Part shown: piece by piece, positions 3,319 to 23,881 of the stretch
Layout of the letters: each line of letters opens with the position of its first letter
How positions within the stretch are numbered: the first letter of the stretch is position 1
Virus record (IMG/VR): IMGVR_UViG_3300044808_000042
Span: 1-23,881 of that record
Strand: one strand, 5' to 3'
Source: a virus
Length of the DNA: 23,881 nucleotides
Notes under the pieces: model-generated
Database searches by the model: none
What the model was told of the DNA's origin: nothing
The model's input: only the letters and a program-made list of their open reading frames with translations
Translations under genes and position numbers: made by a program

Positions 3319-4470
3319 CTAGCTGGTCACCCCGTAGAGCTGGCCGTGGAGCGACTCGTTGGCCACTTCCAGGCCGCTCTCCTCGAGGTACTCGTCCGCC
3401 CAAAGGTCGTCGCCGGGGTTCTGGCGGTTGATCTTCAGGGTGGACTTGCGGCCTTCGAGGTAGCGGTGCTTGACCTGCGTCGGGTCGAAGGCGAACGCGT
3501 CATCCGCGTAGCCCTCTCCGCCGGCGCCGTCGACCATCAGGTGGTGCTTCATGAGAAGCAGCGTGCCGTGGGACGTTTGGAGCTCCCGGATTGCCAGGCC
3601 GTACATCTTGTCCTTGGGCACGATCTGGATCCGCGGCTCGGCGAGCAGGTCGATGACCGTGCCGATGAGCGGCGAGTGGATCACCATGCGAGAGCTCGAT
3701 CCGCCCGTGTGGGCGAACAGGTCCTCGGTCCAGTCCCAGATCTCCGCCAGCGACAGGGCGCCGGAGGCGTCCTTCACGTTGGTCGAGATCCAGTACTCGA
3801 GCCCGCCCGTGTATCCACGGGGTGCGCCCGTGTCGGCGACGTCGCGGTTGCGCTCGCCGAACAGGAACGCGGACTCCATGTCGATCCGGTGGTCCTTGAA
3901 GACCTCCGCCCGCTTGCGGGTCCGGGGGTCACCGAAGTAGTGCTTGGTGGCCTGCTCGGTCCCCGTGGCGGAGACCACACGCCGGAAGATCTGCGTGTAG
4001 TTGTAGGGCATGGTCTCCTGGTGGTCGCGAGCGACCGGGAGAGCAGCACCTTCGCTGACGGCCTGGCCGATGATCAGCAGGTCGTCGTTGTCGTTCATCG
4101 CCGCGGCGGCGGTTGAGCCCGTTGCGCGAACGACCGTCAGGGTGTTGCCGGTGACGGCCGTCACCCGGATCTGCTCACCGGTGCGGGGGTTCTTCACCAG
4201 GTCGTGGGGTTTGAAGTAGCCACCGTTGTCCACCTCGATGGAGGTGTCGCCGGAGGTCTGGGCTCCGTTGACCTGGTCCCACTTCGGAGCGAGGGTCTTC
4301 TCGCCCCATTCGAACTTGAAGTTGTCCGCCACCTCCGAGCGCGCCTCACGGATGAGGTGCGTGAACGGAGAGATGTCGGGGTCGAGATAGTGGAGCCTTG
4401 AGACGTCGCGAACGTGGGTGGAGGTGTTGACCGTCGCGGTCGTCTGGGCCCCGTTGATCATGGTCGTCAT
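3319..4470 (-). CDS. Major capsid protein, SU10/DUF5309-type HK97-like fold
   Basis: This encodes 383 residues. After the N-terminus come LHYLDPDISPFTHLIREARS and NFKFEWGEKTLAPKWDQ, the hallmark opening of the SU10-type (DUF5309) capsid family: an 'isP..plf..' helix, then a beta hairpin. Next come an extended domain with GEQIRVTAVTGNTLTVVRAT, the segment EAFKDHRID-like RKRAEVFKDHRIDMESAFLF, and a C-terminal domain rich in strands. Length is normal for the family. The ATG at 4470 has AAGGAG nine bases upstream. The order portal, scaffold, capsid is canonical. These subunits build the icosahedral shell. Family assignment is by eye, but the context makes the role secure. Confidence 0.9.
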   Translation of the reverse strand: MTTMINGAQTTATVNTSTHVRDVSRLHYLDPDISPFTHLIREARSEVADNFKFEWGEKTLAPKWDQVNGAQTSGDTSIEVDNGGYFKPHDLVKNPRTGEQIRVTAVTGNTLTVVRATGSTAAAAMNDNDDLLIIGQAVSEGAALPVARDHQETMPYNYTQIFRRVVSATGTEQATKHYFGDPRTRKRAEVFKDHRIDMESAFLFGERNRDVADTGAPRGYTGGLEYWISTNVKDASGALSLAEIWDWTEDLFAHTGGSSSRMVIHSPLIGTVIDLLAEPRIQIVPKDKMYGLAIRELQTSHGTLLLMKHHLMVDGAGGEGYADDAFAFDPTQVKHRYLEGRKSTLKINRQNPGDDLWADEYLEESGLEVANESLHGQLYGVTS

Positions 4471-5577: not shown

Positions 5578-5921
5578 GTCATGCTCCCTTCGGTTTGCGG
5601 GGCCTCGGCCTGGGCGATCGCCCGGCTGAGGGTCTCCCGTTCCTTGCGGATCTCCTCGGGGAGGCCGAGGAGCCATCTGATCGCGTCGAGGCGCCCACGC
5701 GCCTCCGCGTCGTGCTGCGGGTCGTGGATCACACCGGGGGCTGAGAGAGCGCCGAGCGCTTGTGCTTCCCGCTCGCGGGCCCGGTCGAGGAGCCGCTCCC
5801 ATGCGCCCAGCGGGAACAGCTCGCGGATCTCGCTTGCCTCCGAGAACTTCAGACGGAGCTGCGCGAGTCGGTTCACGTCGGGGTGGAACTCGGGCTGGGA
5901 GAGGTCTCTGAAGCCGGCCAT
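5574..5921 (-). CDS. Small helical protein between portal and scaffold, function unknown
   Basis: This encodes 115 residues, mostly amphipathic helix: VNRLAQLRLKFSEASEIREL, AWERLLDRAREREAQALGAL and RLDAIRWLLGLPEEIRKERE. There is no catalytic motif. The start is the ATG at 5921, sharing TGATG with the portal stop. Its end overlaps the GTG start of the scaffold gene (GTGA), so all three are likely translationally coupled. The role may be in portal or procapsid assembly, inferred from position only. Confidence 0.7.
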   Translation of the reverse strand: MAGFRDLSQPEFHPDVNRLAQLRLKFSEASEIRELFPLGAWERLLDRAREREAQALGALSAPGVIHDPQHDAEARGRLDAIRWLLGLPEEIRKERETLSRAIAQAEAPQTEGSMT

Positions 5922-7909
5922 CAGTAGCCCGCCGGCTGCGGCATCTGCTGGCCGCTTTGCTGGGCCATCTGGGCCATGAGCTCAGGTGGGATCCCGCCCA
6001 TCGGGTCGACGGGCTGGCCCTGGTCGTCGACCGCTCCCTCGGGCTGCTCGTCCTCGGGCGAGAGGTAGCGCCCGGTGTCCTTCTTGCCGAACGCCTCGAG
6101 CACGTCCTCCTTCAGCGCGGTGAGGCCGGGGTGCTCCTGCTGCTCCATCGCGGGCTGTCCCGTCATCGGATCGACGACCGGCTGGCCCAGGGCGTCGGTC
6201 ACGGGCAACGTCACCGGCGGGAAGTAGGGGGCGAGCTCGTGGAGGAGAGACAGCGCCATCTGCTGGCGGACGGTCTCGGTCTGCACGGTCGAGGCGGGCT
6301 CGATGTCGTAGTCGAACGAACCGGCCATCGACTCAGGGTCGAGGGTGTCCCACAGGGTCTTGCCCCTGGGGCCGACGATCCGGAGCGGCTTCTCCTCCGT
6401 CCAGAACTGCTGGATGATCGCGCCGTACTGCCGCGCCAGGCGGCGGAGCGCGGTCACCTCGGCGAGCTTGGTTTTCATCCCGAAGCGTGTGGCTCCCTGC
6501 TCCTGGATGATGGCCACGCCGGTCGCGGTGTCGTTGAGCGAGGGAGAGTCGTTGCCGGTCTGGTAGGCACTGACGCCGGTGACCTTCTCGATCATGGCCT
6601 CGATCGCGGCGACCTCCTCGAATGCGGAGTAGGGCACGTCGGGCCGCTCGAGCCACTGGATGACCTCGTTCGGGTTGTGACCACTGGTGTCGATGAACCC
6701 GCCGGGCTTGACCACCAGCTGTGCGGGATCCTTCAGCTTGGACAGGTCGCCGGCCGCCATCGGCGACAGCGCGAGCTTGCCGTTGTCGATCCGCAGGTTG
6801 ACGAGCGCGTTGGTGGAGTCCTGCAGCGCCTCGACCGACTCGATCTCGCCGACGCCGTAGAACTCGCCGGGGACCGGGTGGTCGACGATCTTCACGAACG
6901 GGATCTCGCCGTGCAGGAACGGGTTGTAGTCGTGCCGGAGGATGGCTCTGCGAGCGGCCACGGTGATGACGCGGCCGTCGCGGGTCCAGATCTCCCACAG
7001 CTCGATCAGCTTGCGGGTCTCGTCCGATTTCTTGTCGCCGGCCGACATCCCGACCTCGGCCTGGCGCTGGGCGACCGGGTCCTCGTCCGAGCCGCCGACG
7101 AGCGATTCTATGGTCCGTCCGCCGAGGAGGGCGTAGTCCTTGGCCTCGATCTTCGCCTTCAGGTACTCGATGTCGCGCTCGTGACGCTGGATCACGTAGG
7201 GCGCGTCGTCGAAGTCGGTGGATCCGGGCGCGACCCACAGGTTCGCGAGGTCCACGTTCTCCGCCCGGGGCCCGTCGTAGGGCGGTGGCACCATCTGGCG
7301 CACGGTGCGGAACTCGCCGGTCTCGACCTGGTTGGTGACGGGGTACTGGTCGACCAGCTCGTCCCCGTTGATGTCGAGCATCGGCTGACCCGTGTCGGGG
7401 TCGATCACGACCTGCTCGACCATCTCGGTCGCGTCCTCGAGGATCGGCTCGCGCACGATCTTGGGGACCGGCTCGTTGGAGTAGAAGACCTTGAGGACGC
7501 CGGTGCCGTACATGAGCGAGGACTTGAAGCCCTCGATCAGCTCGACCTCGAGCCCGGACTTGTCCGCGCAGTAGTCGAGCAGGTCCTCCATCGTCTTGGC
7601 CGGCTCCTCGTCCTCGGGCCCGACCGGGTTGACGAGGAACTTCGGGAGCTGCGCGACGAGGCGGGGCAGGATCGTCTCGACGACCCAGAACGAGACCGGG
7701 ATGAACATCTTCGAGCGCCAGTCGTTCGGGTCGAGGTCGACGTGGGAGCGGTAGTGCTTGTAGTGCCGCGTCCAGCGATCGACGTGAGGCTGGCGATCGG
7801 CGTCGGCTGCCGTGAACGCCTGAGTGGCGAACGTCAGCAGATCGCGGTGCTCTTCTTCGTCCTTCGGGTACAGCGCGCCGGCGCCGTAGGCTGCATCTGG
7901 TCCTGGCAA
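5921..7909 (-). CDS. Portal protein
   Basis: This encodes 662 residues starting at TTG (7909), with AGGAG five bases upstream and no in-frame ATG near. The portal family is shown by an N-terminal helical region (WTRHYKHYRSHVDLDPNDW), then RSKMFIPVSFWVVETILPRL, the EGFKSSLMYGTGVLKVFY segment, and the central HGEIPFVKIVDHPVPGEFYG followed by IESVEALQDSTNALVNLRID. The C-terminus is Pro/Gln/Met-rich. The segments resemble SU10-type portals. The protein forms the dodecameric ring at one capsid vertex through which DNA is packed. It lies 21 bases downstream of the large terminase stop and is coupled to the next gene. Confidence 0.9.
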   Translation of the reverse strand: MPGPDAAYGAGALYPKDEEEHRDLLTFATQAFTAADADRQPHVDRWTRHYKHYRSHVDLDPNDWRSKMFIPVSFWVVETILPRLVAQLPKFLVNPVGPEDEEPAKTMEDLLDYCADKSGLEVELIEGFKSSLMYGTGVLKVFYSNEPVPKIVREPILEDATEMVEQVVIDPDTGQPMLDINGDELVDQYPVTNQVETGEFRTVRQMVPPPYDGPRAENVDLANLWVAPGSTDFDDAPYVIQRHERDIEYLKAKIEAKDYALLGGRTIESLVGGSDEDPVAQRQAEVGMSAGDKKSDETRKLIELWEIWTRDGRVITVAARRAILRHDYNPFLHGEIPFVKIVDHPVPGEFYGVGEIESVEALQDSTNALVNLRIDNGKLALSPMAAGDLSKLKDPAQLVVKPGGFIDTSGHNPNEVIQWLERPDVPYSAFEEVAAIEAMIEKVTGVSAYQTGNDSPSLNDTATGVAIIQEQGATRFGMKTKLAEVTALRRLARQYGAIIQQFWTEEKPLRIVGPRGKTLWDTLDPESMAGSFDYDIEPASTVQTETVRQQMALSLLHELAPYFPPVTLPVTDALGQPVVDPMTGQPAMEQQEHPGLTALKEDVLEAFGKKDTGRYLSPEDEQPEGAVDDQGQPVDPMGGIPPELMAQMAQQSGQQMPQPAGY

Positions 7910-7930: not shown

Positions 7931-9733
7931 CTACAGGCCCGACTGGGTCGGAGCGCGCTTCCACTCCGGCGCGGGCTTGGTCGCCTCGTCCGTGTGGTGG
8001 CGCAGCATCTGGACCGCGACGGCTCTGCCGATCACGCGGTCGTCGTGCGAGCCCTCCTGGGCTGCGGGCCGGCCGTCCTTGGCGTCGCGGACGAAGGTGA
8101 AGTACTCCTTGACCGCCTCGGCTCCGGGGTCTCCGAGCGAGTCCTCGCGGATCGCTCGGGCGAGCTCGTCGAGCATCGGCATCCGGGTCTCGGCCGATGT
8201 GACCCAGCCGAGGACCTCCGTCTGCTTGTTGGTCGCCGTGTTGATCTTGCGGTGGCGGAACAGGTTCGGGTAGTTCAGCTCGGTCGAGAGCACCCGGAGC
8301 ACCGTCTCGCCGGATGAGTGGTTCCGCTCCACGCCGATGAGCGCAGCGAAACGCCGGCGTCCCGGGCCCGGGCACGAGTACCAGTTGCCGAGTGCCCACA
8401 GCTCGTGGGCGAAGACCTCCGGTGCCATGCGTCCGTGGAGCTCCGCGACGACACGGGGGGGGACCTGGACCTTCTTGTCGCCCTTCTTGGTCCAGTAGGC
8501 GGTGCGGAGCACGGCTGCCGATGAGGCGTCACGACCCTGGCGATCGCCTTCGGGATCGGTGAAGTCCGAGTCCCTGCCGGCGACCTGTCGGCCGGTGGCC
8601 GTGTCGGCCCCGATCACGTAGTGGCCCTTTGGGTCGGGCCGCTCCCAGATCTTCAGCGACCCCCGCTCGGCTGCCCGGGGGGTGAATCCCTTGGCCTTGC
8701 CGGTCGCGGGGTTCTTCTGAACGATCAGATTCAGCCGCTCGAGGGGCTTGCGGACGAGCTTCTGAAGCTCGACCAGCCTCTCCTCGTCGAAGAAGCAGTT
8801 GCCGCTGACTAAGAACGCCTCGTCGGAAGTCGCGGGGAACTCCTGGCGGAACGCTCGCTCGTCGGCGGCGAACTGGTCACGGATCGTGCGCCGGCGCCAC
8901 GCGAGCTGCTCGGGTGTGAGCACCCAGCGGCCGCCTGCGAGCCATGCGCCCGCGGGGAAAGAGGTCTCGTCTCCGTCGAACTCGTCCCAGGGCAGGCCCT
9001 CATCCAGGGCCCTGCGCTCGAACGGGTCAGACGAGCCGCGAATCTCGGTTATCTCAGAATCGGTAAGGGGTACCCGGTATTCCTCGTGGATCCACCACGG
9101 CAGGAAGATCGCGATGTAGCCGGACTCGCCGGCCTTCGCGGCTTCCCAGAACGTGTGGAACCAGTTGCCGACGCCGTTGGCCGTCGACTCGATGAACACC
9201 TCGGAGCCTTCGGGCGGCACCGCCTGAAGCAGCGCCATCATCGTGTCGGCCGGGTGGTCCCAGAAGGCGACCTCCGAGGCGTGCAGACACTGGATCGTGA
9301 GCCCGCGTCCGGCGTCGGTGTCTTTCGCCGTGTCGACGATGACCTTCGAGTCGTGGTCGAAGGCCATGTGCTGCTTGCCACCGAAGCGCACCCCCGGCGT
9401 GATCTCCGCCGGGACGTTCAGCCGGAAGCGCTCGTAGATCGCGAACAGGGCCTCGGAACGCTTCTTGAGGTCGGCGATCACCATGGCGAGCACGCCGCGC
9501 CACAGGTGCGTCTTGCGGAAGAAGCGGGCCCCGACGTAGGTCGAGATCCCCTGCTGCCGGGCCTTGAGGACGATCGCCCTCACCCGGCCCGTCTCCTGCC
9601 GCTGCTTCACGACCTGGCGGTGGGCGATGGTCTGAGCGGTGTTGAACTGCAGCGGAACCGTCCGCGCGTCCTTGTCGCGGATGACGAGGCACGCCTCGGA
9701 GTAGGTAGGAAGCTCGCTGCGAAGCCGGCTCAG
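7931..9733 (-). CDS. terL: Terminase large subunit (packaging ATPase and nuclease); start uncertain
   Basis: The ATPase motifs are LKARQQGIST (deviant Walker A), CLHASEVAFW (Walker B with catalytic Glu) and VFIESTANGVGN (motif III). The C-terminal RNase H-like nuclease shows YVIGADTATG, a middle GVERNHSS and a final SHDDRVIGRAVA with acidic residues. The first standard start is GTG at 9610, but it would leave Walker A about 15 residues from the N-terminus. The same frame continues upstream without a stop and encodes LPTYSEACLVIRDKDAR and VPLQFNTAQTIAHRQ, a plausible adenine-binding Q motif. I therefore extend to CTG 9733, five bases after the small-subunit stop. A CTG start or an error in the sequence are both possible. 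Confidence 0.9.
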   Translation of the reverse strand: MSRLRSELPTYSEACLVIRDKDARTVPLQFNTAQTIAHRQVVKQRQETGRVRAIVLKARQQGISTYVGARFFRKTHLWRGVLAMVIADLKKRSEALFAIYERFRLNVPAEITPGVRFGGKQHMAFDHDSKVIVDTAKDTDAGRGLTIQCLHASEVAFWDHPADTMMALLQAVPPEGSEVFIESTANGVGNWFHTFWEAAKAGESGYIAIFLPWWIHEEYRVPLTDSEITEIRGSSDPFERRALDEGLPWDEFDGDETSFPAGAWLAGGRWVLTPEQLAWRRRTIRDQFAADERAFRQEFPATSDEAFLVSGNCFFDEERLVELQKLVRKPLERLNLIVQKNPATGKAKGFTPRAAERGSLKIWERPDPKGHYVIGADTATGRQVAGRDSDFTDPEGDRQGRDASSAAVLRTAYWTKKGDKKVQVPPRVVAELHGRMAPEVFAHELWALGNWYSCPGPGRRRFAALIGVERNHSSGETVLRVLSTELNYPNLFRHRKINTATNKQTEVLGWVTSAETRMPMLDELARAIREDSLGDPGAEAVKEYFTFVRDAKDGRPAAQEGSHDDRVIGRAVAVQMLRHHTDEATKPAPEWKRAPTQSGL

Positions 9734-9737
9734 CGTT

Positions 9738-10184
9738 TCAGTCCGAGCCGTTGGTTCCTTTCGCGTCGAGCTCGGCGATCGTCTGCTCGAGCGTCCCGGA
9801 TACTTCCAGGCGCTCGGCCGGGATGAACTCCTGGATCCTCTTCAGGATGGCCTCGGCAGCTGCTCGGCGGGTGGCGTTGTCAGCGGCCTCGAAGCCGTCG
9901 CCGGTCTTGGTGACGACGAGCTTCTGTGCGTCGAGCAGGTCGATCAGTCGGTTGACCGCAGGATCAGCAGCTGAACGGAGCCTTGAGAGCGCCAGCCTGA
10001 CGGTGTCGTCGACGAACTCGCGTTCCCACCGTTCCCGGATGTCGCGCAGGATCCCGCGGAACTCGCGGCCGGCGTCAGAGTCCAGGGTACGCCACTCGTA
10101 CAGCGTCGTGCGGCCGATCTCGGCGAGCTGCGCGGCGTCCTCGGTGGTCTTGCCCTCGACGAGAGCAGTCGCGGCAACGACCAT
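9738..10184 (-). CDS. terS: Putative terminase small subunit, HTH-containing
   Basis: From the ATG at 10184 this is a 148-residue protein. The N-terminus holds a helix-turn-helix of the phage small-terminase type (TTEDAAQLAEIGRTTLYEW, with 'AA..a.i.r.TlY.W' spacing). Long helices and an acidic C-terminus follow. Small terminase subunits bind DNA at the packaging site and hand it to the large subunit encoded next. The frame is open further upstream to an ATG at 10334, but that stretch overlaps the preceding gene and is low-complexity and basic, so I prefer 10184. No strong Shine-Dalgarno precedes it. Confidence 0.7.
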   Translation of the reverse strand: MVVAATALVEGKTTEDAAQLAEIGRTTLYEWRTLDSDAGREFRGILRDIRERWEREFVDDTVRLALSRLRSAADPAVNRLIDLLDAQKLVVTKTGDGFEAADNATRRAAAEAILKRIQEFIPAERLEVSGTLEQTIAELDAKGTNGSD

Positions 10185-10200
10185 GGACGAGCGCTGGGCG

Positions 10201-10569
10201 TCAGCGTGTTTCCGTCTCGGAGTCGCCCCCGAGGTAGACCTGGTCGAGCTCCGTTTGGGAGACCCGGACCGCTTCCCCTGATGCTCTGTCACGTCTCCAC
10301 AGCTCCCCTCGGGTATCCCGCTGGGCGGGGCCAAGGCCTTTGGTCGCCTCGAGCATCTGTTGCTCGCGCGTTGCTGCGTCTGCTCCGAAGGCTTCCTTCA
10401 GTGGCTCGTCGTCGAAGTAGGTGCCCGCCTGCGCCTGGCTGGCGAGCTTGTTCGGGAGCGCCCGGGGGTCGATACGGACCGTGCCCATGCGCTCTCGGAA
10501 CGTCATCCCGCAGCGGATCCCAAGGTGTGCGGATCCACAGTCAGGGCAGTCGTGTAGCTCGGCGGTCAC
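10201..10569 (-). CDS. Zinc-ribbon phage protein, function unknown
   Basis: This encodes 122 residues from the GTG at 10569, which overlaps the stop of the preceding gene (GTGA). The N-terminus is CPDCGSAHLGIRCGMTFRER followed by MGTVRIDPRALP. The C-x2-C plus a further Cys-Gly suggest a zinc-binding knuckle. The rest is helical and polar and ends QTELDQVYLGGDSETETR. CGMTFRER-type proteins are common beside phage packaging genes without known function. The upstream neighbour carries a related motif. An ATG-like start further upstream reads through that neighbour in the wrong frame and is rejected. Confidence 0.75.
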   Translation of the reverse strand: MTAELHDCPDCGSAHLGIRCGMTFRERMGTVRIDPRALPNKLASQAQAGTYFDDEPLKEAFGADAATREQQMLEATKGLGPAQRDTRGELWRRDRASGEAVRVSQTELDQVYLGGDSETETR

Positions 10570-11232: not shown

Positions 11233-11495
11233 GTCGTCCCTCCTACCTCCGACGCATGGACCGCGTCGGTCCAGTCGGGGTCCTCGTTTCGGTGGGCCAC
11301 GGCGATGAGATCGGTGACCATCACCCATGCGCGCCTGAGCGCCTGGTAGTGGCTCTTGTGGTCGCGCAGCTGGTTGGTGCGGAGGAGAGCGAACACCGCG
11401 GCCTCTGCCAAACTGACGGCCTCGAGGCTGAGCAGGACGGGCTCGGCTGGCAGCGGCAGCTGGGCCACCAGGCAGTCCTCGTCTTGGGTTTGCAT
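11229..11495 (-). CDS. Small helical protein, function unknown
   Basis: This encodes 88 residues from the ATG at 11495, or one residue more from the adjacent GTG at 11498; both overlap the int1 stop (GTGATG). It is Leu/Ala-rich and helical (VLLSLEAVSLAEAAVFALLR), then basic (DHKSHYQALRRAWVMVTDLI), with an acidic end. Hydrophobic stretches are too interrupted for clear membrane helices. No motif is recognised. Coupling to int1 upstream and to the CTG-start gene downstream supports that it is real. Confidence 0.65.
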   Translation of the reverse strand: MQTQDEDCLVAQLPLPAEPVLLSLEAVSLAEAAVFALLRTNQLRDHKSHYQALRRAWVMVTDLIAVAHRNEDPDWTDAVHASEVGGTT

Positions 11496-12304
11496 CACGC
11501 GGTCCTCCGCCGGTCCAGACCCTCGCGGATCCGGGAGACGTCGTTGTTGAAGTAGATGCGGGTCGTCGCCGGCGAGGCGTGGCCCAAAAGGTCCTGGATC
11601 ACCGTCACGTCCGCGCCTGCCTTCGCCATCTCGGTGGCGATCGTGTGGCGCAGCTGGTGGGGAGTGAAGCCAGCGCGGCGGAAGTGGCGCTCGATCGTGC
11701 GGGCTGAGGCTGGCATCCGCCCATCGAGCGCCTCGAGCGAGGCCCGGGCGAGATCCGTGAGCGGGATCAGGCGCTCCTTGCGGCCCTTACCGAGCACGAT
11801 GAGCTCGGTGGGCACGGGCAACGGGACGTCGAGCGAGCACGCCTCGGAGATCCGCAGGCCCGTCTCTGCAAGGAACAGGGCCGCAGCCTTGAAAGCGGGC
11901 TCGAGCTTTTGAAGCTTCCGAGCGAGCTCGGCCACCGGTCGCGGAAGCGTGCGGCGCACCTTGGGACGGTCGAGCTTGGTGGTCGGATCGTCCTCGCGCT
12001 GGTCGGAGCGCACGAGCCACCCGTAGAACGAGCGGAGCGCGGCAAGCCGGCCCGTCTGCGTGGACGGAGACCCGGGCCTGTGCTGCATGAACGCTCGCAG
12101 GGCGGGCGCTTTCAGCTGGCTGATGGGCTCGGCGGCGAAGGCCTCGAGCCGGTGCAGCGTCGCCCGGTATTTGCGGAGCGTGCCGGGGGACAGGCCGCGT
12201 TCGATCGCGGCCCAGGCGAACCAGTCGGGGATCAAAGAGGGGGAGGAGGCGACGCGCGTCGTCTGTGCGGTGCCCGCTGGGGGCACACTCCTCCCTATCT
12301 CCAT
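11495..12304 (-). CDS. Tyrosine recombinase (integrase-type), copy 1
   Basis: This encodes 269 residues with a complete catalytic set: Arg151 in ETGLRISEA, Lys173 in LGKGRKER, His216 and Arg219 in TPHQLRHTIATE, His242 in LLGHASPATT and nucleophile Tyr251 in TRIYF. The N-terminal part (about 25-105) is a SAM-like core-binding domain (LSPGTLRKYRATLHRLEAF). Length is at the short end for phage integrases and close to XerC/XerD-like enzymes; there is no separate arm-binding domain. Unlike int2, it lies inside the late operon, overlapping small genes on both sides. It may integrate the phage, resolve multimers or act on another site; sequence alone cannot decide. Confidence 0.9.
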   Translation of the reverse strand: MEIGRSVPPAGTAQTTRVASSPSLIPDWFAWAAIERGLSPGTLRKYRATLHRLEAFAAEPISQLKAPALRAFMQHRPGSPSTQTGRLAALRSFYGWLVRSDQREDDPTTKLDRPKVRRTLPRPVAELARKLQKLEPAFKAAALFLAETGLRISEACSLDVPLPVPTELIVLGKGRKERLIPLTDLARASLEALDGRMPASARTIERHFRRAGFTPHQLRHTIATEMAKAGADVTVIQDLLGHASPATTRIYFNNDVSRIREGLDRRRTA

Positions 12305-14385: not shown

Positions 14386-14619
14386 TCAGGATGCCTCATG
14401 GGTGGAGGAGAGAAGGACCAGATCCAGAAGCGCCCGGCGGAGCGAGGCGCGTGAGGGATGGGGGCCGAGGGCGCGGAGGGCGAAAGACAGGGCCTCGACG
14501 CGTTCTGAATGGGAGGACCCGCCGAGGGCGCAGCAGGTGTAGGCGGGCTGGGGTGCCCCGCCTCGGACCAGGCGAAGGGGTGGTGCCCTCTCCTCCACGG
14601 CGCCATTGTCGCAGGTCAC
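14386..14619 (-). CDS. Small protein, likely first gene of the accessory cluster
   Basis: This encodes 77 residues from the GTG at 14619; a TTG at 14637 or a GTG at 14592 are alternatives. The second half is a convincing amphipathic helix region (HSERVEALSFALRALGPHPS, then RASLRRALLDLVLLSSTHEA), with strong G/C at third codon positions. Two adjacent Cys precede it. No Shine-Dalgarno is seen, so the message may be leaderless. The stop is eight bases before the next start. No family is recognised. Confidence 0.45.
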   Translation of the reverse strand: MTCDNGAVEERAPPLRLVRGGAPQPAYTCCALGGSSHSERVEALSFALRALGPHPSRASLRRALLDLVLLSSTHEAS

Positions 14620-14662
14620 ACGCTTAGAAGCACGCAACCCTCAACCTCAGGTCGAGCGTTCG

Positions 14663-14979: not shown

Positions 14980-15843
14980 CTAGTCGTCGAAGTCCAGGAG
15001 CACGACGTCCCCCTCGAGATCCTCGACCACGACCTTCGTGTAGATCTGGGTCGAGGACAGGGACTCGTGACCGAGCAGCTCCTGGATGTGCCGGATGTCG
15101 ACGCCCTGGGCCAGGAGCTCGGTCGCGAAGGTGTGCCGGAGCTTGTGGGGCGACACGTCGGTGAGGCCTGCCGCGGCCGCGGCGCCCTTCACGTCGTTCC
15201 AGATCGTGAACGGGGAGATGTGGGGCCGGCTGCCCCACCCGGGCGGGAACAGGTACGGGCTGCCGTTCGTCTTCGCCAGCCAGCCCCGCATGATCTCGAC
15301 CAGGCGGGGGTGCACCGGGACGATCCGTTCCTTCGAGCGCTTGCCCATGATCCGGAGCCTCTTGTCCTCGAGGTCGAGGCTCGCCTTCGGCAGGCGCGCG
15401 GCCTCTTCGCGGCGGGCTCCCGTGTACAGGATGAGGCCGACGATCGCCAGAGAGCGATCGCTGTACAGCCTCGCGCCCCGGAGCAGCTCGACGGCGAACC
15501 TGTGGGCGATTGGGCGAGGGAGGTTCTTCGGTTCGGGCACGCGCTCGATTGTCTCGGTCGGGTTCGTCTTCCGGTACCGGCGCTCGCCGGCGAAGCGGAA
15601 ATAGGCGCGGAGATCGGCGAGCCTCGTGTTCCTGGTCTTGGGGTGGCGGGCCTCGTGGAGGAAGGCCACGAGGTCTTCCCGGTGGGCTCGCAACAGCGCG
15701 CGGCCCGTGTGCTCTCTCAGGAAACGGTCAGCGAGGCGTAGGTTGCGCTCACGCGAGCCCCTGGTGGCACGAGACCACCCCCGCTCGTCGAGCATCCAAC
15801 GGGCGAAGTCCATCCACAGATGCGGGCCTCGGGGAAGGGGCAC
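14980..15843 (-). CDS. int: Tyrosine recombinase (phage integrase), copy 2
   Basis: This encodes 287 residues from the GTG at 15843. The catalytic set is complete: Arg144 in YTGARREEAARL, Lys168 in IMGKRSKERIV, His233 and Arg236 in SPHKLRHTFATELL, His259 in LLGHESLSS and nucleophile Tyr268 in TQIYTKV. An N-terminal core-binding domain spans about residues 8-95. The acidic end (LEGDVVLLDFDD) follows the Tyr. It is encoded just downstream of the XRE repressor on the same strand with a 40-base gap, the usual lysogeny-module arrangement, so this is the better candidate for prophage integration. It differs clearly from int1 in sequence and length. Confidence 0.92.
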   Translation of the reverse strand: MPLPRGPHLWMDFARWMLDERGWSRATRGSRERNLRLADRFLREHTGRALLRAHREDLVAFLHEARHPKTRNTRLADLRAYFRFAGERRYRKTNPTETIERVPEPKNLPRPIAHRFAVELLRGARLYSDRSLAIVGLILYTGARREEAARLPKASLDLEDKRLRIMGKRSKERIVPVHPRLVEIMRGWLAKTNGSPYLFPPGWGSRPHISPFTIWNDVKGAAAAAGLTDVSPHKLRHTFATELLAQGVDIRHIQELLGHESLSSTQIYTKVVVEDLEGDVVLLDFDD

Positions 15844-15883: not shown

Positions 15884-16267
15884 CTACCCACGTACGGGGC
15901 GGAGTTTCCGCTGCTCAGAGGCTGTTTCACGAAACCATCCCATCGCTTGCAGCAGCTCCAAAGTCGCGCGATCCGTGATGAACTCGAGCTCGGGGTAGTC
16001 CTCCTTCTTCACAAGCAGCTCCTCCGGCGTACGGCCCAAAGCGCGAGCGATCGCAAGCATCCGCATGAGGCTGAGCGGCTCAGGCGCCTTGTCGTTCTCG
16101 ATCTCGTTCACCTGGAATCGACTGGTCCGCACGCCGAGCCGAGTTACCGCTTGAGCCAGAGCCTCTTGTGCCTGAAACGGGGAGTGGAAAATGCGGAAGT
16201 AGCGAACTCTCCCGCCGAGGGTTTCCGGCATTGGGAAGGCGTGCTCTCGGGGTGCCGCGTCAGCCAC
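15884..16267 (-). CDS. XRE-family repressor (CI-like), lysogeny regulator
   Basis: This encodes 127 residues from the GTG at 16267. A helix-turn-helix spans about residues 33-82: AQEALAQAVTRLGVRTSRFQ, NEIENDKAPEPLSLMRMLAI and ARALGRTPEELL, the XRE pattern ending in 'la.aLg.tpeeLl'. A C-terminal helical part (RATLELLQAMGWF) may dimerise. There is no peptidase domain, so RecA-triggered self-cleavage is not expected. It faces the Cro-like gene across 94 bases holding repeated GACGCAA sites. No Shine-Dalgarno precedes the GTG, and a TAGCAT -10 box lies seven bases upstream, so a leaderless message is likely. Confidence 0.8.
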   Translation of the reverse strand: MADAAPREHAFPMPETLGGRVRYFRIFHSPFQAQEALAQAVTRLGVRTSRFQVNEIENDKAPEPLSLMRMLAIARALGRTPEELLVKKEDYPELEFITDRATLELLQAMGWFRETASEQRKLRPVRG

Positions 16268-20583: not shown

Positions 20584-22086
20584 ATGCCCGGTGGCGAGAA
20601 CGGTTCCGGAAACGGGTCGAGCCATCCCCTCCTGCCCTCCGACGAGGATGCGGAGGACGCCGTGCTAGGTGCGGCGCTCGTCTCCGAAGAGGCCGCGCGG
20701 GTGGTGACCGCTGATCTGCACGAGGACTCCTTCACCAGGGAGTGGCGACGATGCATCTTTCGCTCCGTCGGCCGGCTCGTCGGCAAGGGCCAGCACGTCG
20801 ACATCATCACCGTCGCCGCCGATCTGTCTCACCACGGGGAGCTCTCCACCAAGGAAGACCCCAAGCGCCCAGACCCGCTCAGGCTTCACGCCCTGGCGGA
20901 GTCGGTCGCACTCCCTGCAGCTGCTCCCCAGTACGCGCAGATCCTCGCCGGGCACGCCCAGCGAAGGCGGATCGTGCTCCTGGCGAGCGACGTCCAAAGG
21001 CGCATGGCCGATCCCACCACCGAGCCTGAGGCCGTGTTCGCGGAGCTCTCCTTGGCGGCGCCCGAGATCCAGGTGGCCAGTCGGATGTTCTCCGGGACCA
21101 CCTTCGCGCTCAGCGAGAGGGCCGTTCTGGAGTCGGTGTGGGGCCGCGGTTCGGAGGTGCTGTGGGCCGGCGGAGAGCCGCTCCTGATCGCCTCTCCCAC
21201 CGGGGTCGGTAAGACGACGCTCGCCAACCGGCTGATGCTGGCTCGCCTGGGCGTGGGCTCGGAGGAGATCTTGGGCTTCCCGGTGTCTGAGGCGGACCGG
21301 CCGATCTTGTACATCGCGGCCGACCGCCCGCGGCAGGCGAGCCGGAGCCTCCGACGGATGATCGAGGCCGCCGGGGCTGAGGAGTACTCGTTGCTCGAGG
21401 ACTTCCTCATGGTCCACGCGGGGCCCCTGGGGTGGGACATCGCCCGAGACCAGGGCCGTCTGTATGCGTGGACGAAACAGCTCGGCGTGGGCACGGTCGT
21501 CATCGACTCACTCAAGGACGTCGCCTCTGAGCTCACGAAGGAGGAGACCGGCCAGGGTCTGCATGCAGCCTTCTCCGAGCTCGTGGCGAACGACATCGAG
21601 GTTCTGGCGCTTCACCACCAGAGGAAGTCGACCCCAGACAATCGCAAACCCCGGACGATCGACGACATCTACGGCTCCACCTACATCACCGCCGGCGCGG
21701 GCTCCGTCGTGCTGCTCTGGGGCAAAGCCGGCGACCCGGTGTTCGCACTCGATCATCTGAAGCAACCGGCCGACGACGTGGGACCACTGCAGGTTCGCGT
21801 CGACCATGAGACCGGGGCACTCTCTCGGGTCCACAAAGCGGACCCTGTTGCAATCCTGCGGCAGTCACCTCAGGGACTCTCCGCGCGCGAGGCCGCGGTG
21901 GCGATCTTCGACACCACGGACCCGAGCGAGGCGGAAGTCGAGAAGGCCCGCAGACGACTCCGATCTTTGGAGTCGGCGGGACAAGCTATGCGGCAGGAGA
22001 TCGGAACTGGGCGCGGCCACTCCGCTCGATGGTTCGCGACTACCCAGCAACAGGAGCTCCACGCTCCTCAGGAGGAACTGTTGTGA
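20584..22086 (+). CDS. Replicative helicase, DnaB N-terminal domain plus RepA-type ATPase
   Basis: This encodes 500 residues. Residues 18-130 resemble the DnaB N-terminal domain (SDEDAEDAVLGAALVSEEAA, FTREWRRCIFRSVGRLVGKG, VDIITVAADL). The RecA-like domain has Walker A ASPTGVGKTT (203-212), Walker B VVIDSL (305-310) and a HHQRKST sensor region, as in RepA/AAA_25 helicases. The last 80 residues (SPQGLSAREAAVAIFDTT, then EKARRRLRSLESAG) form a winged-helix-like domain, with a Gln/Glu tail. It would unwind DNA at the phage origin; no primase is seen in the window. The start is the ATG next to the preceding stop. Confidence 0.88.
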   Translation: MPGGENGSGNGSSHPLLPSDEDAEDAVLGAALVSEEAARVVTADLHEDSFTREWRRCIFRSVGRLVGKGQHVDIITVAADLSHHGELSTKEDPKRPDPLRLHALAESVALPAAAPQYAQILAGHAQRRRIVLLASDVQRRMADPTTEPEAVFAELSLAAPEIQVASRMFSGTTFALSERAVLESVWGRGSEVLWAGGEPLLIASPTGVGKTTLANRLMLARLGVGSEEILGFPVSEADRPILYIAADRPRQASRSLRRMIEAAGAEEYSLLEDFLMVHAGPLGWDIARDQGRLYAWTKQLGVGTVVIDSLKDVASELTKEETGQGLHAAFSELVANDIEVLALHHQRKSTPDNRKPRTIDDIYGSTYITAGAGSVVLLWGKAGDPVFALDHLKQPADDVGPLQVRVDHETGALSRVHKADPVAILRQSPQGLSAREAAVAIFDTTDPSEAEVEKARRRLRSLESAGQAMRQEIGTGRGHSARWFATTQQQELHAPQEELL

Positions 22087-22547
22087 CTCTCCGTACAAAC
22101 TCACGGAAAAGTCACGGTCTCCCGAAAATCGTGGGCAAGGCGGTAGGTGGAGGGCTGAAACCGCAGGTCAGAGCGGGTTTCAGGCCGCGTGAGTTTATTG
22201 GGGACCCTCCAACCCCAAAACCGCAGGTCAGAAGCCTCTTGAGCTTCATGCCCTCGTCTCCCCAGCCCCCACACCCCCGTAGGGGGTTGGGGCGGGGACG
22301 AGACGGCCGGTGCCGGGAAGGGGGTGAACCTGCGACGCCGGCCTGGGCTCAGTGCGGTGAAGCGCATACATCTCGGGAACGCTTCGGCGATCCCCAGAAG
22401 GAATTGCTCGAACAGCACGCCGCACTGCCCAAGCGTGCCCGGCGGGGCCGAGTAGATAACGCTCGCGTATGGGGAAGGCGTGAGCGGCTCCAAAGGCTCC
22501 GCCGGGCACTCATCTCACTCGCAGGTCTGGAGGTGGTCGCCGAGTAG
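22083..22547 (+). CDS. Hypothetical protein of atypical composition after the helicase
   Basis: This encodes 154 residues from the GTG at 22083, overlapping the helicase stop (GTGA). The first 75 residues are encoded by unusually A/T-rich codons and hairpin-forming DNA, with KPQVR repeated in LKPQVRAGF and PKPQVRSLL. A Pro/Arg/Gly-rich low-complexity middle follows. The last 60 residues look like a genuine basic helical domain (ERFGDPQKELLEQHAALPKR, then RRERLQRLRRALISLAGL). Either the frame is fully coding, or only its 3' part is and the 5' part is a regulatory or origin region. No family is recognised. Confidence 0.5.
   Translation: MTLRTNSRKSHGLPKIVGKAVGGGLKPQVRAGFRPREFIGDPPTPKPQVRSLLSFMPSSPQPPHPRRGLGRGRDGRCREGGEPATPAWAQCGEAHTSRERFGDPQKELLEQHAALPKRARRGRVDNARVWGRRERLQRLRRALISLAGLEVVAE
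22097..22296. repeat. Hairpin- and repeat-rich region, candidate origin or RNA structure
   Basis: AAACTCACG (22097-22105) and CGTGAGTTT (22188-22196) enclose an inner hairpin, GGCTGAAACCGC (22153-22164) with GCGGGTTTCAGGCC (22173-22186). TTGGGG (22198-22203) pairs with CCCCAA (22213-22218). AAACCGCAGGTCAGA is directly repeated at 22158-22172 and 22218-22232. Further on, CCCCC-GTA-GGGGG and the G-run GGGGGTTGGGGCGGGG (about 22276-22296) could form a hairpin or a G-quadruplex. The region follows the helicase, a usual place for an origin or regulatory structure. Confidence 0.6.
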
Positions 22548-22591
22548 AGATCCGCCCGGTAGGCAAGCCCGTAGCCGAAAGGGGACGCGAA

Positions 22592-23020
22592 ATGAGACGA
22601 GTAGCGACAGCACTTCTGCTGGTGATCGCGTTGGCGGCACCAGCTGCAGGAGCAAGACAACGTGGAGGTGACGAGCATCAGACGCGAAGGGAACGGATCG
22701 TTGAGAAGGCCCTCGAACGTGACGAGTGGGGACGCTCCGACCGTGTCGTCCGCACGACGATCGTCGTCGCGCGGCACCTCGTCCACAAGCGCGGGTGGCC
22801 GTACTCGGAGTTCGTCTGTCTCAAGGAACTCTGGTCCGGCGAGAGCGGATGGCGTTGGTGGATCTACGGCGGTGTTCCTCAGGCCATGCCGGAACGAAAG
22901 ATGGCATCGGCCGGTGCTGATTGGGAGACGAACCCGATCACCCAGGTCCGGTGGGGCCTCGGGTACATCGCCGACAGGTACCAAAGGCCGAGCGGCACTG
23001 GCTGCTCGCCACCCTACTGA
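22592..23020 (+). CDS. Secreted lytic transglycosylase (endolysin-like)
   Basis: This encodes 142 residues with an N-terminal signal peptide (RRVATALLLVIALAAPAAGA, cleavage near residue 20). The C-terminal domain matches the actinobacterial transglycosylase-like pattern: FVCLKELWSGESGWRWW with catalytic Glu84, then GGVPQAMPERKMASAGADW and NPITQVRWGLGYIADRY. The usual 'NPSSGAYG' insert is shortened to WIYGG. The ATG has AAAGGGG upstream. It would cleave peptidoglycan glycan strands. A signal peptide means export without the holin, suited to a signal-arrest-type lysin or an entry/remodelling enzyme. It lies in the early-direction strand, away from the holin-like gene. Confidence 0.85.
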   Translation: MRRVATALLLVIALAAPAAGARQRGGDEHQTRRERIVEKALERDEWGRSDRVVRTTIVVARHLVHKRGWPYSEFVCLKELWSGESGWRWWIYGGVPQAMPERKMASAGADWETNPITQVRWGLGYIADRYQRPSGTGCSPPY

Positions 23021-23370: not shown

Positions 23371-23881
23371 ATGGCCACACGTATCGACAAGCTGACCGAC
23401 GCGCAGTCGGCCCGGATGGAGGAGTGGGCTGACAGGTGGATCGAGGTCGGGCTTCGCACGGCTCCGGCTGACCGGGAGAAGTTTGAGAAGGCGGTGCGGG
23501 AGTGCTACCGGTTCGCTGGGCTCGAGGAGCCCCGCGTGGTCGTGTGGGCACCTTCACCGTTGGTCGTTTCTTTGGCGGGGCCTATAGCGTCGTCTCTGCT
23601 CTCTCGAACACCGCCATCTCAAGGCGGTGTTCGAGAGAGGGTTCTATATAGAGGGGACGGTGCGGTCCGCGGTGCGGTCGACGGTGCGGTCCGCGGTGCG
23701 GTCGACGGTGCGGTCGGCGGTGCGGTCGACGGTGCGGTCGACGGTGCGGTCGGCGGTGCGGTCGGCGGTGCGGTCGACGGTGCGGTCGACGGTGCGGTCC
23801 GCGGTGCGGTCGGCGGTGCGGTCGACGGTGCGGTCGGCGGTGCGGTCGAGGCCATCCGGAGAAGCTGGAACCAGGTTTTCG
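23371..23881 (+). CDS. DUF6745-like repeat protein, truncated by the window
   Basis: This encodes 170 codons from the ATG at 23371 to the right edge; the C-terminus is missing. The start (MATRIDKLTDAQSARMEEWA, DRWIEVGLRTAPADREKFE, CYRFAGLEEPRVVVWAPSPL) resembles DUF6745-type proteins. These continue with tandem short repeats before a C-terminal domain. Here 16 GAV(D/G/R/E) tetrapeptides follow and then EAIRRSWNQVF. Between them lies a palindromic peptide encoded by a perfect 17-bp inverted repeat. No strong Shine-Dalgarno is seen. The function of this family is not known to me. Confidence 0.7.
   Translation, partial: MATRIDKLTDAQSARMEEWADRWIEVGLRTAPADREKFEKAVRECYRFAGLEEPRVVVWAPSPLVVSLAGPIASSLLSRTPPSQGGVRERVLYRGDGAVRGAVDGAVRGAVDGAVGGAVDGAVDGAVGGAVGGAVDGAVDGAVRGAVGGAVDGAVGGAVEAIRRSWNQVF
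23560..23588 (+). promoter_or_regulatory. Promoter-like sequence inside the last gene
   Basis: TTGGTC (23560-23565) and TATAGC (23583-23588) are 17 bases apart, close to an actinobacterial consensus. It would start an RNA near 23595 that begins with the 17-bp hairpin. It is intragenic and could be chance. Confidence 0.3.
23599..23639. repeat. Perfect 17-bp inverted repeat, 7-base loop
   Basis: CTCTCTCGAACACCGCC (23599-23615) and GGCGGTGTTCGAGAGAG (23623-23639) are exact complements around ATCTCAA. It is followed by GTTCTATATAGAGG. It is the longest perfect hairpin I found in the window and lies in-frame within the DUF6745-like gene, directly before the 12-bp repeats. Confidence 0.9.
23659..23850. 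repeat. 16 tandem 12-bp coding repeats
   Basis: The unit GGTGCGGTCGAC and its variants, differing only in the last three bases (GAC, GGC, CGC, GAG), is repeated 16 times without interruption. It encodes Gly-Ala-Val-X, with X in the order R D R D G D D G G D D R G D G E. Only the fourth codon varies. Confidence 0.95.

Follow-up and report, generated by a model that had tools for sequence, protein, structure and literature searches.

What is the function of the stretch that follows the replicative helicase gene in IMGVR_UViG_3300044808_000042, a temperate phage record of IMG/VR? The record is a linear virus fragment of 23,881 bp, which was analyzed over its whole length and is referred to below as the window. 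A preliminary description had reported two 15-base direct repeats behind the helicase gene, exactly 60 bases apart, and had proposed a replication origin with iterons or a structured regulatory RNA overlapping a gene. Both repeats (AAACCGCAGGTCAGA) were recovered by reading of the sequence and by a repeat search (Table 1). The best explanation that we can offer is that they are copies of an actinobacteria-wide protein-binding motif of about 19 bp, with a host-encoded factor of DNA architecture as the binder; our confidence in this explanation falls a little below an even chance. The motif itself exists across the phylum and has fixed positions beside attachment cores and cohesive (cos) ends, at the latter in either orientation.

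A 15-base repeat was obtained in 1 of 2,000 mononucleotide shuffles of an 801-bp stretch. Other 15-base repeats are also present elsewhere in the window, so the repeat alone is modest evidence, and its recurrence in other genomes is what counts.

Distribution of the motif

Exact matches to the motif (53 in total) were found in 42 of the 296 Actinomycetota genomes of an even sample, while the reversed pattern gave 0 matches. Viral contigs contained at least 120 stretches with the 15-mer, against 26 for the reversed 15-mer. Genome contigs contained at least 114 stretches with the longer 19-mer, 80 of them named; all further counts over host loci (n = 114) and viral loci (n = 120) refer to the matches listed, and the totals are at least these. 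Among the named genome contigs, locus L157 is given without a phylum and L196 is labeled Acidobacteria, yet its genome, G078, is in the Actinomycetota sample. All 342 matching records of annotated phages were actinophages, with Mycobacterium (310), Streptomyces (16), Gordonia (11), Rhodococcus (4), and Nocardia (1) as hosts, and the 57 plasmid records with the motif were actinobacterial throughout. Within the annotated collections and genome contigs searched, the motif is confined to Actinomycetota and their mobile elements. Among the rows seen, it lies outside annotated genes: in 60 of the 60 best phage rows listed, either no annotated feature was present under the match or the record was unannotated.

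The motif is non-palindromic, and its strongest form is AAAACCGCAGGTCAGAGGC. Of 116 viral loci, 75 were non-redundant, and in these conservation fades about 3 bases beyond either side of the 15-mer. A broader pattern, Y-R-W-W-W-C-CGCAGGTCA-G-R-G, was derived from 40 nearby non-identical copies picked by exact CGCAGGTCA. A degenerate 13-mer occurred 176 times in 8 host genomes versus 64 times for its reverse, a comparison confounded by dinucleotide content. The motif was not found as a described element in the literature searched, which was open-access only and makes this a weak negative; the one useful sequence match was a primer of phage Joe (PMC5311408).

In one Coriobacteriia locus (L148), the motif is close to the presumed chromosomal origin, and the flanking proteins of another locus (L259) are closely similar.

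Position at attachment sites

In 19 of the 114 host loci, a tRNA ended 0–5 nt before the motif in the same orientation; two further tRNAs were located 20–21 nt from it in the opposite orientation. A relaxed T-arm was detected ahead of the motif in 24 of the 114 loci, versus 0.68 expected. Past the motif, tandem repeats were found within 125 bp in 16 of 34 tRNA-side loci, versus 6.2% of random windows (P ~4e-11), and in 8 of 77 other host loci. They are spaced by one helical turn, and each element has repeats of its own, such as TGTCAGCAGA, TGCTAACGC, AGTCCGCAATA, and AGCACACAGTT. In Taj and Taquito, the motif lies between the core of the phage attachment site (attP) and the arm repeats TGTCACCC or TGTACCCA. 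At these tRNA-side loci and in these two phages, the motif has the place of an IHF-type accessory site, between the core and the arm-type sites. Arm-type sites proper follow the N-terminal domain of the tyrosine integrase and so vary in sequence with it, and here the tandem repeats differ while the motif is constant.

A motif variant was also present 57 bp from the serine-integrase attP of Streptomyces phage Joe, where it may serve transcription or something else. The variants in this phage (KX815338) are located at 36499, beside the attP, and at 48614–48718, 0.2–0.3 kb from the right genome end. In five Arthrobacter/Paenarthrobacter loci (L160, L163, L166, L178, and L198), a shared palindromic stretch around TTGAATCAATGATTCATCAAA shortly precedes the motif. 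These loci have a tyrosine recombinase close by, some are on plasmids, and they have the look of a plasmid resolution or integration site.

Position at genome ends

The motif was within 160 bp of a genome end in 51 of 60 phage records, in most of them at 47–55 bp, which is the position of an IHF-type site at cos; the records were spread over the ranking, and many are close relatives, so they represent few independent units. In the six genera that were read, Kostyavirus, Cheoctovirus, Omegavirus, Kratiovirus, Lumosvirus, and Gaiavirus, both orientations of the motif were found at the ends. We take these mycobacteriophage genera to correspond to clusters E, F1, J, K, L, and X, and their genome ends to be cos ends. 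A run of at least 5 G or C separated the motif from the end in all 6 genera, versus 0–10% of background 60-bp windows. The window also pairs the motif with a G-run, but runs of this kind are found in 12% of its 60-bp windows. Closeness to a physical end is seen in isolated phages, while the window is a linear fragment whose ends are not necessarily those of the phage.

The motif in viral loci was flanked on one side by a transglycosylase gene in 20 of 96 cases and by the terminase large subunit gene in 17 of 96 (phrog_38), and on the other side by a terminase gene in 7 of 103; these counts lack a matched background, and several of the contigs are close relatives. The gene that follows the gap in the window encodes the same transglycosylase family. 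Both positions can be combined in one genome: record G007 carries motif copies at 56–70 and at 31799–31813, the latter about 620 bp from an integrase domain at 32435. Likewise, two strong copies are present in the window at 22 kb, and a recombinase gene at 15 kb is flanked by two degenerate ones, one on each side.

Proposed role and candidate binding proteins

The motif is found in phages, both lytic and temperate, in plasmids, and in integrated elements, although no gene is evidently common to them all, and the binder is therefore probably a host protein. Such a host-encoded factor would bind the motif and would bend or organize the DNA, like IHF at lambda attP and cos; a role in DNA architecture is suggested by the fixed placement at attP and at cos, where both orientations occur. 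Less firmly, the motif pair at 22.16–22.23 kb together with the G-run hairpin would form a cos-type packaging junction, separating the early genes from the module that follows, and the degenerate copies around the 15-kb recombinase would belong to an attachment region. By analogy, we favor a putative cos-type junction over an origin for the 22-kb region.

Actinobacterial IHF (the mIHF/sIHF family) is the leading, although unproven, candidate for the binder. The actino_IHF family was found in 27 of 27 motif-bearing genomes versus 1 of 14 control genomes. According to the available parts of PMC3724605 and PMC10028186, actinobacterial IHF was found as the host factor for integration of mycobacteriophage L5. 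Lsr2 was rejected as a universal binder: it was present in 25 of 27 motif-bearing genomes, and two Collinsella lacked it.

Several observations weigh against this explanation. Exact copies number 1–5 per host genome, unlike the sites of a general nucleoid protein. In the same available sources, mIHF is reported to have no DNA sequence preference, attP included (PMC3724605, PMC10028186). Actino_IHF occurs in 269 of the 296 sampled genomes, so its co-occurrence is consistent with the motif but not discriminating; moreover, it accompanied the motif in 40 of 42 motif-bearing genomes, with none shown in G152 and G336 (in G336, absent among the matches listed). A tyrosine integrase was detected within 3 kb in only 18 of the 114 host loci and 8 of the 120 viral loci, and a Pfam domain search recognized no arm-binding domain in either tyrosine recombinase of the window. 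The serine integrase of Joe is active in vitro and also in E. coli, so recombination by this enzyme does not require the motif. Finally, the terminase genes of the window, at 7.9–10.3 kb, are on the opposite strand and remote from 22 kb, so that the cos assignment in the window is by analogy only.

Alternative explanations

The motif could be an operator or promoter element of a phylum-wide transcription factor, exploited by mobile elements. It is placed in divergent intergenic gaps in Taj, Taquito, and Joe, TTGACA-like boxes are found nearby, and CRP-like palindromes lie near it in several freshwater phage loci. This explanation is nevertheless unlikely, since the motif has a fixed place at tRNA and cos ends, shows no consistent relationship to the starts of genes, and is present in only a few copies in each host genome. 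The CRP-like palindromes (TGTGAnnnnnnTCACA type) were seen by eye close to the motif in L017, L020, L060, L064, L069, L081, L096, L098, and L121.

A packaging signal of actinophages (cos/terminase), hijacked by satellites, would account for the 47–55 bp that separate the motif from the genome end in the majority of the records sampled, and for the genes of a terminase large subunit or a transglycosylase that flank it in viral loci. The occurrence of the motif in plasmids and at integrated attachment ends, its copies at attP, and its two orientations at cos make this rather unlikely.

We give little credence to the motif being the arm-type site of one large actinobacterial family of tyrosine integrases, even though it lies 0–5 nt behind tRNA ends, an integrase, where one was detected nearby, is often 0–300 bp away, and Taj has an inverted motif pair around the core. 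Separate, element-specific tandem arm-type repeats lie outside the motif, and the motif also occurs at cos ends remote from int and next to the attP of a serine integrase. In cluster K phages, 11-bp repeats flanking the core are the putative integrase arm-type sites, according to the available part of PMC3203893, in which no mention of the motif was seen.

That the 22-kb stretch is the replication origin of the phage, with the motif as an initiator or origin-accessory site, appears quite improbable. The stretch is directly behind the replicative helicase gene, and the L148 motif is located between the ribonuclease P protein and DnaA genes. The GC skew, which the preliminary description had suggested as a check, does change near 22.5 kb, from about 0 (16–22 kb) to a value of about +0.11 beyond that point, but this is a fragmentary record, and gene orientation could account for the skew. 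Against an origin, relatives of the helicase are found in mycobacteriophages, and in several of these the motif is near the right end of the genome, about 30 kb away from the helicase gene; an origin would leave the attP and cos positions unexplained. Iterons in the strict sense, that is, element-specific repeats beside an initiator gene, were not found: the motif is common to hundreds of actinophages, plasmids, and integrated elements that are unrelated to one another and have no initiator evidently in common, and this spread, together with the positions at attP and cos, argues against a phage-specific initiator site. What survives of the proposed origin-like region is a functional-looking non-coding stretch with repeats that resemble protein-binding sites; its gene and RNA parts do not hold.

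A transcription terminator including the motif is very improbable. In its favor, the opposite strand reads GCCTCTGACCTGCGGTTTT, with a T-run at its end, the motif follows tRNAs, inverted motif pairs exist, and in cluster K a stem-loop located between the core and P3 has been described as a putative terminator (PMC3203893, available part). However, the motif occupies divergent gaps in Taj and Taquito and lies 5' of leftward genes in Baka, rather than 3' of transcription units, direct repeats are unable to pair with each other, and 19 conserved bases are more than a terminator would need.

Structure of the gap and gene content of the window

The inverted repeats, the TTGGGG/CCCCAA hairpin, and GGGGGTTGGGGCGGGG were all located where they had been described (Table 1).

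Table 1. Features of the 23,881-bp window; position weight matrix (PWM) scores are to be read against a background maximum of 7.8–11.7 in 6 block-shuffled windows
Feature	Position	Strand	Evidence or remark
Motif copy 1, AAACCGCAGGTCAGA	22158..22172	+	Context gctg...gcg; PWM score 27.2
Motif copy 2, AAACCGCAGGTCAGA	22218..22232	+	Consensus A just before, at 22217; PWM score 28.8
Degenerate third copy, TTGTCGCAGGTCACA	14606..14620	+	PWM score 21.5; past 3' end of 14980-15843 recombinase gene
Degenerate fourth copy, TTTCCGCTGCTCAGA	15905..15919	+	PWM score 15.8; 61 bp upstream of 14980-15843 recombinase gene
Non-coding gap with both motif copies	22087..22591		Helicase end 22086, next gene start 22592; codon statistics; open reading frame without homologue
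Outer inverted repeat, AAACTCACG / CGTGAGTTT	22097..22196		Arms 22097-22105 and 22188-22196; sequence
Inner hairpin, GGCTGAAACCGC / GCGGGTTTCAGGCC	22153..22187		Arms 22153-22164 and 22174-22187; motif copy 1 partly in stem and loop
TTGGGG / CCCCAA hairpin	22198-22203 / 22213-22218
Strong G/C-run hairpin	22253..22302		GGGGGTTGGGGCGGGG at 22282-22297; -36.6 kcal/mol as RNA
DnaB-like/RepA-like replicative helicase gene	20584..22086	+	PF00772, PF13481; phrog_6012, E 1.6e-88
Transglycosylase-like gene	22592..23020	+	phrog_12661
Tyrosine recombinase between the two degenerate motif copies	14980..15843	-	PF00589
Second tyrosine recombinase	11495-12304	-	PF00589
Major capsid protein gene	3319-4470	-	Leftward late gene
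Portal gene	5921-7909	-	Leftward late gene
Terminase large subunit gene (TerL)	7931-9610	-	Leftward late gene
Terminase small subunit gene (TerS)	9738-10334	-	Leftward late gene

The stretch had been called hairpin-dense. The fold of 238 nt is indeed better than that of dinucleotide shuffles (z -3.08, 1/200), but by raw energy it is ordinary for this GC-rich window, ranking 82 of 198 among comparable stretches. Two hairpins within 500 bp are attained in 7.3% of 500-bp windows, and hairpins here exceed the level of the genome only mildly. The shift toward A/T is present but small, with a GC content of 0.62 (22087–22302) versus 0.64–0.69 in the neighboring genes tested.

A frame does stay open across the gap (22029–22547), as had been noted, but codon statistics and homology searches show it to be non-coding. 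Third-position GC in this region is flat across the frames (0.65/0.71/0.58), versus 0.83 in the helicase gene, and the mean codon log-odds of the open frame is -0.38. It had no Pfam or PHROG match and no tblastn match among 50,697 phage records. The coding interpretation was ruled out by the codon statistics together with the absent tblastn match; the frame is spurious and not a gene. A structured regulatory RNA overlapping a gene is likewise not supported, with no gene, no Rfam match at gathering scores (below the threshold, only chance matches to miRNA and snoRNA families), and no homologous stretch: searches of phages and viral contigs found no homologues of the 22-kb stretch usable for covariation. 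The only meaningful DNA match of 21900–22700 in phages was at the motif (Gaia and Nebkiss; 29 bp, E 0.07). Relatives sought in viral contigs through the transglycosylase gene gave 2 loci, and none were found through the helicase gene.

The rightward genes of the window include those for an HNH endonuclease, an exonuclease, a Gp3-like protein, the helicase, and the transglycosylase-like protein. This single 24-kb record holds two different short tyrosine recombinases (PF00589, E 5.1e-35 and 6.5e-23). No tRNA was found in the window. The relatives of its TerL are mostly distant Vibrio phages and yielded nothing on cos. About 16 tandem copies of a 12-bp unit, CGGTGCGGTCGG, are present at 23658–23848, near the right end of the record, and are preceded by an inverted repeat at about 23608–23643.

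Comparison with known systems and implications

Phage lambda has an IHF site in cos, and IHF sites consist of an A/T tract adjoining a conserved core. The motif resembles the lambda sites in its positions at both attP and cos, in the A/T tract next to a conserved core, and in being non-palindromic; it differs in its unrelated sequence, its restriction to one phylum, and its putative binder. In the attP of lambda, sites of IHF and other bending proteins are located between the core and the arms, and the motif shares this place with the IHF sites H' and H2 (PMC4880445, available part). No sequence similarity links the actinobacterial IHF family to E. coli IHF (PMC3724605, PMC10028186, available parts). 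The arm-type sites of cluster K are, like the motif, short repeated sites around the attP core, but they vary between phages, whereas the motif is constant and is also present at cos and near a serine integrase (PMC3203893, available part).

As for the stoperators and start-associated sequences of mycobacteriophages, the likeness is that of short repeats in intergenic gaps of actinophages. Stoperators occur in many copies within one phage group. Both kinds of repeats are numerous in one phage group, whereas the motif has few copies per genome and spans the phylum. Start-associated sequences are mentioned in the available part of PMC3203893.

It is possible, although doubtful, that the motif represents an undescribed mobile-element signal of the whole Actinomycetota, recognized sequence-specifically by actinobacterial IHF or another host protein and used by unrelated phages for both integration and packaging. 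In that case, a factor currently regarded as non-specific would have a specific site after all. The motif, constant throughout the phylum in the positions that IHF sites take in lambda attP and cos, offers a concrete 19-bp probe for the specificity of mIHF, and is also a cheap marker of attachment and cos ends in actinobacterial genomes and metagenomes.
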